From Hyphomonadaceae bacterium (GTDB lineage: Bacteria > Pseudomonadota > Alphaproteobacteria > Caulobacterales > Hyphomonadaceae), in the NCBI GenBank assembly GCA_947474455.1, contig CANJIL010000001.1:62001-126000 (forward strand): a stretch of 64,000 bases of DNA. The letters run 5' to 3'. The stretch's first letter is position 1. Each line of letters begins with the position of its first letter. Shown here piece after piece: positions 10,001 through 25,533 of the stretch. The position numbers and the translations under genes were made by a program. The notes under the pieces were generated by a model. The model saw only the letters and a list, made by a program, of their open reading frames with translations, did no database searches and was not told the DNA's origin.

Positions 10001-10057
10001 ATGTCCGGGAGCCAGCAGGCGCTCGTACTCGTGTTCGGCTCGCCGCCGGCCCGGTAG
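10001..10057 (+). CDS. ilvB operon leader peptide
   Basis: An 18-codon ORF, MSGSQQALVLVFGSPPAR, with a GGGAGA ribosome site. The Leu-Val-Leu-Val run sits just upstream of the first hairpin, which is the layout expected for ribosome-mediated attenuation by branched-chain aminoacyl-tRNA supply. Leader peptides of this kind before ilvB are known in alphaproteobacteria from comparative genomics. The peptide itself probably has no function beyond sensing. Confidence 0.8.
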   Translation: MSGSQQALVLVFGSPPAR

Positions 10058-10079: not shown

Positions 10080-10090
10080 ACGCGAAATCG

Positions 10091-10117
10091 AAGGGCCCGA
10101 GTGGCCCTTTTTCTTTT
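10091..10117 (+). terminator. ilvB attenuator terminator
   Basis: AAGGGCC, a five-base loop CGAGT, and GGCCCTT are followed by TTTTTCTTTT: a textbook intrinsic terminator 34 bases before the ilvB start. Its position between a branched-chain leader peptide and ilvB identifies it as the attenuator stem. Confidence 0.88.
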
Positions 10118-10150
10118 CCCAGAACCTGCAAGACACTGTGAAAGCCCGAG

Positions 10151-22929: not shown

Positions 22930-23673
22930 ATGAATAAAATCGCCGCCTTCCTCAACAACATGGACGCTCGGGCGTGGCGCACCGTCTGTGTGTCACTCGC
23001 CCTGCTGGTCGGCGTGGGCGTGTTGATGGTCCTGGGCAAGTCCGGCGCATTTGGCTTCGCCGACCACATCGACGAACAGCTCTCCGGATTCCGCAACAGC
23101 CCGTGGGGACTGCCCGCGACGATCCTCGTCTTCATCCTAACGGCCTTCATCGCGGCGCCACAATTCGTCCTGATGGCGGCCTGCATCGTCGCCTTCGGCC
23201 CTTGGCTGGGAAGCGTCTATGCCATGGCCGGCCAGATGGCTGCGGCCTGGCTGCATTTCTACATGGGCCGCTGGGGCGGGCGTGAGCTGGTGGAGCGTTA
23301 CGGCGGCAACACCGTCAACCGCCTCTCCACCTTCATCGGCCGCAACGATTTTCTCGCCAGCATGATCGTCCGTAGCGTGCCCACCGCGCCGGCCATCGTG
23401 GTCAACATGGCCTTCGGCGCCTCCAAGTCGTCGTTCTGGCGCTTCATGGCCGGTTGCTTCATCGGTTCTCTGCCCAAGACGCTGATCGTCGCCCTGCTGG
23501 GCCAGTCGGTGATGTCTGCGATGGGCGGCGGCCTGGTTCTCGCCTTAGGCGGCGTCGTCGCAGTTGCCTCGATCTGGATCTTAGTCGCGCTCGCGGCCCG
23601 CAAGGCCGTGCGCGGCGAGCCGGACCTGCAGGCCGAAGACGCCGCGGCCAGGCCAAACGAAACCGACGTTTGA
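22930..23673 (+). CDS. VTT (TVP38/TMEM64, SNARE-associated) family membrane protein
   Basis: A 247-aa inner-membrane protein with about five hydrophobic segments. The family core is clear: a re-entrant VLMAACIVAFGPWLGSVYAM loop, GRWGGRELVERYGG, and RSVPTAPAIVVNMAFGASK followed by FMAGCFIGSLPKTLI. Related DedA/VTT proteins are thought to move lipids between leaflets; the specific role here is unknown. C-terminal tail is short and charged. Confidence 0.9.
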   Translation: MNKIAAFLNNMDARAWRTVCVSLALLVGVGVLMVLGKSGAFGFADHIDEQLSGFRNSPWGLPATILVFILTAFIAAPQFVLMAACIVAFGPWLGSVYAMAGQMAAAWLHFYMGRWGGRELVERYGGNTVNRLSTFIGRNDFLASMIVRSVPTAPAIVVNMAFGASKSSFWRFMAGCFIGSLPKTLIVALLGQSVMSAMGGGLVLALGGVVAVASIWILVALAARKAVRGEPDLQAEDAAARPNETDV

Positions 23674-23786
23674 GCGCGGCTCGCCCCTAAGCGCTAAACG
23701 CGCGCGGATAGATTTTCCGCCGCAGGCCTACAAAAGAGCTGATCTCACCTCTCGCGCAGCGGTGAGGGGGCGAGATTTACTGTCGC

Positions 23787-23815
23787 TTGACGCCATCGCT
23801 AACCCCAACCATAGA
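23787..23815 (+). promoter_or_regulatory. Probable leuA promoter
   Basis: TTGACG (23787-23792), a 17-base spacer, and CATAGA (23810-23815). The predicted start falls at about 23822, the A of the leader peptide ATG, implying a leaderless leader ORF. The -10 is weak and the call is by eye. Confidence 0.45.
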
Positions 23816-23821
23816 ACGTTC

Positions 23822-23896
23822 ATGCGCAAACAGGGGTTTTCCTTCATTCTTCTTTCCCTGCAGGGGCTGCTTAGCAGCCCCTGGGCGCGTTCGTGA
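23822..23896 (+). CDS. leuA leader peptide (Leu-rich)
   Basis: A 24-codon ORF that begins MRKQGFSFILLSLQGLLSS and ends in ARS-stop. Five leucines occur within ten codons, placed on and just before the first leader hairpin. That position before leuA fits ribosome-mediated control by leucyl-tRNA, as known for leuA in rhizobia and relatives. There is no ribosome site in front of it; with the promoter proposed at 23787 it would be translated from a leaderless mRNA end, as documented for trpL in Sinorhizobium. Confidence 0.72.
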   Translation: MRKQGFSFILLSLQGLLSSPWARS

Positions 23897-23944
23897 TCCC
23901 GGCTTGAATTGCGGGTCACGCGTCCAGGGGATTTGAAACCCTCC
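23861..23944 (+). promoter_or_regulatory. leuA attenuator with mutually exclusive hairpins
   Basis: CAGGGGCTGC (23860-23869) and GCAGCCCCTG (23873-23882) form a perfect ten-base stem with a three-base loop inside the leader ORF. The second arm's CCCCTGG can instead pair with CCAGGGG at about 23924-23930. A further hairpin GTGATCCCG/CGGGTCAC (near 23893-23920, one bulge) and a weaker AGGG/CCCT stem lie before leuA. No U-run follows, so the final output may be translational or Rho-dependent rather than intrinsic termination. Confidence 0.6.
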
Positions 23945-23976
23945 GATACAAAGCCCTGACAGGACGCGAAACCCAG

Positions 23977-25533
23977 ATGACCGCCACGAACACCACCACC
24001 GGCAAAGACCGAGTATTCATCTTCGACACCACGATGCGGGATGGCGAACAATCGCCCGGCGCCTCGATGACTATCCGCGAAAAGCTCGAACTCGCCGAAC
24101 TCCTTCAGGAGATGAAGGTCGACGTCTGCGAAGCCGGCTTCGCCGCTTCCTCCGAAGGCGACTTCCAGTGCGTCTCGCAAATCGCTGAGCTGGCGAAGGA
24201 CATGTCGATCTGCACGCTGGCCCGCTCCACGCTCACCGACATCGACAAGGCAGGGGAGGCTCTTCGTAAAGCGAAGAACCCCCGCATCCACACCTTCATC
24301 TCCACCAGCCCCGTGCACATGAAGCACAAGCTACGCATGGGCCCGAACGCCGTCCTGGAAGCCATCGGCGCCTCCGTCACGCATTCCCGCAAATTCGTCG
24401 GCGACGTCGAATGGTCGGCTGAAGACGCAACCCGCACCGAGTTTGATTTCCTGTGCAAGGCGATCGAGGTCGCCATCCATTCCGGCGCCACCGTCATCAA
24501 TGTGCCCGACACGGTCGGCTATTCGCACCCCGCCGAATACGGCTCGCTGATCCGCCGCCTGATCGAGAACATCCCTGACTCGGATACAGTCATCTGGTCC
24601 ACCCATTGCCACAACGATCTGGGCCTCGCCGTGGCCAACTCGCTGGCTGGCGTCATCAACGGCGCGCGCCAGATCGAATGCGCCGTCAACGGCATGGGCG
24701 AACGCGCGGGCAACGCCGCGCTGGAAGAAGTCGTCATGGCGCTGAAAGTGCGCGGCGACTCGATGCCGTTCTACACCGAGGTCGTGACGCAGAAGCTGTC
24801 GCGCGCCTCCAAGATGGTCTCCTCCATCACCGGGTTCCCGGTGCAGTACAACAAGGCCATCGTCGGCAAGAACGCCTTCGCGCACGAGAGCGGCATCCAC
24901 CAGGACGGCATGCTCAAGAACCGCGAGACCTACGAGATCATGCAACCAGAGGATGTGGGCGTTCCTTCCACTTCGCTGATCATGGGCAAGCTATCCGGCC
25001 GCAACGCCTTCCGAGACAAGCTGGAATCCCTCGGCTACGTCCTCGAGCCGGCCGCCCTGAATGACGCCTTCAAGCGCTTCAAGGATCTCGCCGACAAGAA
25101 GAAGCACGTCTTCGACGAAGACATCATCGCACTCGTCGACGACCAGCTGGCTGGCGCACAGGAAAAGGTCGCCATCCGCCGCCTCAAAGTCGTCGCCGGT
25201 ACGGACGGCCCGCAATCTGCCGAACTGGAAATCGTGGTCGAAGGCGAAAGCCGCTCAACGCACGCCACCGGCAACGGGCCCGTCGACGCCGTATTCAACG
25301 CGATCCGCCAACTGGTGCCTCACACGGCCGTCCTCGAACTCTACCAGGTCAACGCCGTCACCGAAGGCACGGACGCGCAAGCCACCGTCTCCGTCCGCCT
25401 GGCGGAGCAGGGCCTCGTCGCCACAGGCAAGGCCAGTGACCCCGACACCCTCGTAGCCTCCGCCCGTGCCTACGTCCACGCGCTCAACAAGCTCGAGGTA
25501 CGCAGGGCCAAAGCCACCGGCGCCGCGGCCTGA
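23977..25533 (+). CDS. leuA: 2-isopropylmalate synthase
   Basis: First committed step of leucine synthesis, condensing acetyl-CoA with 2-ketoisovalerate. 518 aa. The catalytic TIM barrel starts [15 protein letters not shown] and contains the metal-binding [15 protein letters not shown] followed by [10 protein letters not shown]. The linker has [11 protein letters not shown], and a C-terminal LeuA regulatory domain (about 390-515) provides leucine feedback. Length and layout are normal. It is preceded by its own leader peptide. Confidence 0.97.

Follow-up and report, generated by a model that had tools for sequence, protein, structure and literature searches.

A conserved leucine-rich leader element upstream of leuA in Alphaproteobacteria, with a leader ORF predicted to be leaderless in Caulobacterales

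In Proteobacteria, amino-acid leader peptides are usually explained by transcription attenuation. In the enterobacterial leu operon, as in the locus analyzed here, leuA is preceded by a leader ORF that contains leucine codons; the present locus differs from that leader in lacking a terminator and in its structure.

The actinobacterial LEU element (Seliverstov et al. 2005, PMC1262725) is described as having a leader ORF in which Leu codons form a run and no obvious terminator; a base stem pairs the Leu run with the leuA Shine-Dalgarno and encloses inner helices. We found the same arrangement: an ORF with Leu codons lies directly 5' of leuA, and, for the locus set, its Leu region pairs with the Shine-Dalgarno; the exact helix varies by lineage and, for the window, is a modelled one. 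The account in PMC1262725 also describes a pseudoknot, whereas here there is one long covarying hairpin, and nested helices alone were evaluated. The likeness is one of architecture. The element described here is hosted by Alphaproteobacteria and, unlike the LEU element as presented in PMC1262725, has a leader that is predicted to be leaderless in Caulobacterales. The trpL leader of Sinorhizobium meliloti is likewise an alphaproteobacterial leader ORF in which transcription is reported to begin at the AUG (PMC7298713, PMC10117765). In contrast to the leuA leader, trpL is described in these sources as a transcription attenuator with a terminator and products that act in trans.

The 64,000-nucleotide stretch of Hyphomonadaceae DNA that we analyzed (the window) contains a further point of comparison. 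Its ilvB leader ORF, which by eye reads MSGSQQALVLVFGSPPAR, also precedes a gene of branched-chain amino acid synthesis. Unlike the leuA leader, it has an intrinsic terminator before ilvB and, judged by eye, its own 5' leader. The ilvB leader is a transcription attenuator of the usual kind and makes a useful contrast to leuA within one genome. Vitreschak et al. 2004 reportedly treated attenuators in Proteobacteria, and that study is cited in PMC1273637 for an ilvB leader.

The leader ORF and its predicted start

The features of the leuA locus and of the ilvB leader are collected in Table 1. The leuA leader ORF translates to MRKQGFSFILLSLQGLLSSPWARS*, and its stop is separated from leuA by 80 nt. 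The five Leu codons start at positions 23849, 23852, 23858, 23867, and 23870. The closest relatives of the window's leuA were found in loci L001-L003 and L009, which are named Hyphomonadaceae or Alphaproteobacteria.

Table 1. Features of the leuA leader locus and the ilvB leader in the window.
Feature	Position	Strand	Basis
ilvB leader ORF	10001-10057		
Intrinsic terminator before ilvB	10090-10110 (hairpin with tail, 10090-10118)		hairpin and U-rich tail
Predicted promoter: -35 TTGACG (23787-23792), 17-nt spacer, -10-like CATAGA (23810-23815)	23787-23815	+	sequence and conserved spacing
Leader ORF, 24 codons, predicted leaderless	23822-23896	+	sequence and comparison with relatives
Base stem around helix B: 23857-23865 and 23834-23840 with 23954-23963 and 23968-23974 of the leuA ribosome-site region	23834-23974	+	fold with B forced
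Hairpin A: ten pairs between 23861-23870 and 23874-23883 with a UUA loop; incompatible with helix B	23861-23883	+	folding; genus-group conservation
Helix B: 23878-23889 with 23919-23930, 12 pairs, conserved core	23878-23930	+	covariation; covariance model match 63.8 bits
B2, inner hairpin atop helix B	23893-23919	+	energy prediction only
Helix C: 23919-23925 with 23962-23968, alternative helix hiding the ribosome site, uses the 3' arm of B	23919-23968	+	energy prediction
AGGA, putative Shine-Dalgarno of leuA, 12 nt 5' of the leuA ATG	23961-23964	+	sequence; modelled anti-SD pairing -4.0 kcal/mol
leuA, 2-isopropylmalate synthase	23977-25533	+	NCBIfam TIGR00973, 673.6 bits, above cut-off

In the relatives, Leu makes up 47% of the ten codons 5' of the anchor codon when these are read in frame, versus 6.5% and 1.9% in the other two frames. 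In a search that put no constraint on the third base of the anchor codon, this codon was CTT in 196 of 206 unique loci. The other Leu codons of the leader vary synonymously among relatives; CTT accounts for 40% of the leader Leu codons besides the anchor, versus 8.5% in seven genes of the window. A reading of the locus made from the sequence alone had proposed this leader ORF, and the in-frame Leu enrichment and the conservation in relatives indicate that it is real. By inspection, families share the Leu run and the codons overlapping helix B, and the rest of the peptide differs among them.

The -10-like hexamer of the predicted promoter lies 6 nt from the leader ATG, and the start of the -35 hexamer lies 35 nt from it. 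Because this spacing leaves 6 nt before the ATG, the predicted +1 falls on the ATG itself, and there would therefore be no room for a ribosome site of the leader. A generic sigma-70 scan did not call this promoter in the window. Of 66 Hyphomonadaceae and Caulobacteraceae loci, 63 have TTGAC or TTGC 35-37 nt 5' of an in-frame leader ATG; approximately 1.5 would be expected after shuffling. In the three exceptions (L100, L103, and L067) the helix search had chosen another anchor, and these loci pass with the stricter core. The letters between the -35, the -10, and the ATG vary in the relatives, and the spacing is constant; the conserved state thus appears to be a 5' region that cannot accommodate a ribosome site. 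The spacing strongly supports a transcription start of the leader ORF at its AUG. The sequence-only reading, which had placed the +1 on the ATG of a leader without a ribosome site, agrees with the positions of the two hexamers and with the spacing kept in relatives. By eye, sphingomonad-like loci have the same promoter-to-ATG layout; the conserved spacing was not seen in Rhizobiales-like loci. Leaderless mRNAs are described as common in Alphaproteobacteria, with 375 leaderless messages reported in Caulobacter crescentus (PMC4117421).

Upstream of the leader promoter, an inverted repeat CTCACC ... GGTGAG (23741-23776) follows the gene at 22930-23673 and is possibly its terminator. This gene is presumably DedA/TVP38-like.

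The conserved core, its folds, and the leuA ribosome site

Of 112 leuA loci, four that were too short or had no motif were dropped, and 97 unique loci were retained. The core CTTANNNNCC(C/T)CT follows the Leu run in 92 of these. It is missing in L052, L060, L065, L079, and L106. Three of these leuA loci (L052, L065, and L079) come from two genomes named Rhodobiaceae and one Alphaproteobacteria MAG, and the element therefore seems to have been lost or replaced in places.

The CCCCT arm and the letters that follow it pair with a segment about 50 nt downstream, which mostly ends in AGGGG; we refer to this pairing as helix B. The number of contiguous pairs averaged 10.3, versus 3.7 in shuffled sequences, and 82 of the 92 loci were individually significant at p<0.05. 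RNAalifold recovered helix B unprompted, with double changes in six of 11 pairs. In the count of named pairs, 93.0% of the cells were paired versus 82.8% after shuffling, and 62 cells contained double changes versus 24.7 (0 of 500 shuffles). These pairing counts fall far when the arms are slid. The unpaired loop is variable in the alignment of the B region, and outside B only CUUA and the preceding G are invariant. The joint alignment A6 was kept out of the main evidence because it holds 18 weak antisense rows. The original observation holds in its essentials and extends further than first described: the leader is a conserved alphaproteobacterial leuA leader element.

The first 104 nt fold with -47.5 kcal/mol, compared to a shuffle mean of -34.3 kcal/mol (z -4.13), which is better than all 200 shuffles. 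The ten-base stem that the sequence-only reading had recognized is present as hairpin A; however, the five Leu codons said to lie on it do not all do so: the stem includes the fourth codon and a single base, the first, of the fifth. That reading also missed helix B, the 5' arm of which is the 3' arm of the same stem. Hairpins A and B both use 23878-23883 and are mutually exclusive. Members of the window's genus group retain hairpin A, in which one pair covaries (GC, UA, CG; alignment A1), and covariation backs a shifted equivalent in Hyphomonas-like relatives.

Left unperturbed, the window is predicted to fold into hairpin A and helix C, with much of the leuA AGGA paired. With helix B forced, the best fold contains the base stem, in which leader nucleotides flanking Leu10-Leu11 pair with the leuA ribosome site. 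Similar pairings were found in most of the 15 genus-group loci. The window's leader has an extra UUUU, in place of which relatives have other letters; its pairing partner is an additional GAAA close to the start of leuA. Helix C as the sole cover of the window's ribosome site is energetically possible; it was rejected in this role, as it showed no covariation in the genus group.

The pairing between the leader and the leuA ribosome site was compared to that of mismatched combinations in 125 representative loci. The 51-nt leader segment up to and including the anchor CTT pairs better with the ribosome site of its own leuA (z -7.3), and so do its last 24 nt, the Leu run, when taken alone (z -7.0). 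The controls gave -1.5 for the reversed site, -0.4 for the shifted site, +0.9 for an upstream segment, and +1.5 for the gap between B and the site. The B element itself scored -1.7, without any advantage over the reversed site of the same locus (-2.1). For the Leu region, z was -5.4 with 48 stricter representatives and -5.9 without the Rhizobiales-like group. A plain energy test of complementarity to the ribosome site was weak, with 21 of 90 loci at p<0.05.

The partner of the ribosome site is the Leu run with neighboring codons in the window's genus group and in Rhizobiales-like and sphingomonad-like loci, the 3' arm of B in other Hyphomonadaceae, and the loop of B in Caulobacteraceae. The Rhizobiales-like Leu-region pairing covaries: 89.0% of it is paired versus 87.3%, and none of 500 shuffles reached its covariation score. 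In Caulobacteraceae, a helix that joins UCUUCGCGG to the ribosome site of leuA looked convincing by eye, but was set aside, as its covariation is no greater than in shuffles. In the Rhizobiales-like alignment A3, a short covarying hairpin (columns 175-193) lies directly 5' of the leuA Shine-Dalgarno and competes with the long-range pairing of the leader codons.

We modelled the accessibility of the leuA ribosome site in 127 representatives with a ribosome-sized mask on the leader and helix B held. Placing the mask on the Leu codons raised the modelled accessibility from 0.39 to 0.51, with 64 loci going up and 14 going down by >0.05. With an equal control mask elsewhere it stayed at 0.39, and with the mask at the leader stop region it was 0.41. 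In the window alone, the mask on the Leu codons raised the value from 0.32 to 0.41; the control mask gave 0.46, an unfair comparison because this mask covers part of the base stem there. Equilibrium folding of the window hardly altered ribosome-site accessibility with ribosome position, and an earlier simulation with 66 leaderless loci gave a small rise versus free RNA, with p 0.10 for the Leu versus the stop position. The modelled release of the window's own ribosome site is therefore weak.

A proposed mechanism and its rivals

Sequence comparison supports the ORF with its Leu run and near-invariant CUU, helix B, the association with leuA, the co-variation with the ribosome site, and the absence of a terminator; the transcription start, the stalling, the direction of regulation, and the level of control we infer. 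The element very likely senses leucine through translation of its leader, and it probably acts on leuA translation, as the actinobacterial LEU element would. Our preferred reading, which we hold with somewhat better than even confidence, is a ribosome-sensing leucine switch that controls leuA translation in cis, i.e., translational attenuation with a leader ORF that is leaderless in Caulobacterales.

Transcription would begin at the AUG of the 24-codon ORF, as the promoter spacing suggests, and the ORF would be translated without a ribosome site. With ample leucine, ribosomes would leave the leader and hairpin B would form; the leader around the Leu codons would then pair with the leuA ribosome-binding region, and leuA would be poorly translated. 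In the window, helix C may hide the site in addition to the base stem. When charged leucine tRNA is scarce, a ribosome would stop on the Leu codons, many of which are the otherwise rare CUU. The parked ribosome would cover the strand that hides the site, allowing leuA to be translated, and helix B would tie up segments otherwise free to re-pair with the ribosome site. Mutations in the Streptomyces coelicolor leuA leader are reported to be inconsistent with classical attenuation (PMC1262725), which we counted against this reading.

No U-run terminator was found for the leuA leader on the + strand in a terminator scan of the window, and no conserved intrinsic terminator was found among 206 loci. 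Terminator-like sites of any kind occurred in 25 of the 206 loci, compared to 10.6 expected from base shuffling; 16 of them are inside the leader, where small hairpins precede U-rich Leu codons, six are in helix B, and three are downstream of B. The missing intrinsic terminator had been pointed out from the sequence alone, together with an end mechanism unlike that of ilvB, and the comparison bears out both: the terminator is present at ilvB and not at leuA.

Without a conserved intrinsic terminator, transcription might end in some other way, and the main rival is early Rho-dependent termination before leuA, set by translation of the leader, with helix B masking or exposing a Rho entry site. 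Rho is proposed in PMC1262725 for actinobacterial cys leaders without terminators. However, Rho leaves the co-variation of the Leu run with its own leuA ribosome site unexplained, and the gap between the leader stop and leuA in the window is short for it; we regard this explanation as unlikely, but as the most probable of the alternatives.

Much less probable is the binding of a protein or small molecule by the RNA, with an incidental leader peptide. A regulatory protein was proposed for the actinobacterial LEU element (PMC1262725), but the variable unpaired loop and the few invariant letters outside B speak against a binding site. The leader also appears to be translated, and not incidental, because of the in-frame Leu enrichment, the near-invariant CUU, and the synonymous variation of the Leu codons. 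Slightly less probable still is classical attenuation of transcription by an intrinsic terminator within the leader: the ORF with control codons and the mutually exclusive hairpins A and B are as expected of such an attenuator, but the intrinsic terminator is absent, with only the three sites downstream of B noted above. A leader peptide or leader RNA acting in trans, which the sequence-only reading had thought conceivable by analogy with Sinorhizobium trpL, is the least probable. In its favor, trpL of S. meliloti is also leaderless and acts in trans (PMC7298713, PMC10117765). Against it, the N-terminus of the peptide varies among families, its conserved part overlaps the RNA element, no peTrpL-like conservation of the peptide beyond its regulatory and helix-coding codons was apparent by inspection, and no conserved 3' end able to release a small RNA was seen among the 206 loci; the comparison favors control in cis.

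Distribution of the element

The covariance model R1 found one convincing site in the window's own genome (G000, 3.29 Mb). It matched 79 of 385 genomes sampled from Alphaproteobacteria. In a sample of 398 genomes from the phylum there were 67 with a match, every one of them within Alphaproteobacteria. Among the fetched match loci, which include some genomes counted twice, 129 of 130 are upstream of leuA (117 of the FDTTxRDGEQ type and 12 of another type). The single match before neither leuA type (L114) is from the own genome, with an E of 8.56. No Rfam family scored above threshold in the window or in 12 relatives, and in the literature search we recognized no prior description of an alphaproteobacterial leuA leader.

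We give about even chances to a broader, class-wide form of the preferred reading. In this form, the Leu codons of the uORF would themselves form the leuA anti-Shine-Dalgarno strand, and a ribosome held up for want of leucine would directly uncover the gene; the uORF would be leaderless in Caulobacterales and perhaps in sphingomonad-like relatives; and the element, a counterpart of the poorly understood LEU element by descent or convergence, would have been retained or re-acquired before two non-orthologous types of 2-isopropylmalate synthase. The element suggests that leucine synthesis in many Alphaproteobacteria may be controlled through leuA translation, with codons that also serve as an anti-Shine-Dalgarno strand and that would belong to a leaderless ORF in Caulobacterales. 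A working model could also help explain the actinobacterial LEU element, the mutants of which do not fit classical attenuation. The element is present in Caulobacter vibrioides (L049), and published ribosome-profiling and start-site data could therefore be used to test it.

The 12 loci of the other type (L184, L196, L201, L206, L209, L210, L211, L214, L226, L231, L232, and L235) carry the element before a non-orthologous 2-isopropylmalate synthase with an STDLRDGNQ-like motif, which we take to be the TIGR00970 type. In most of these loci, helix B is rewritten on both strands (CCCUUAGGCG pairing with CGCCUAAGGG).
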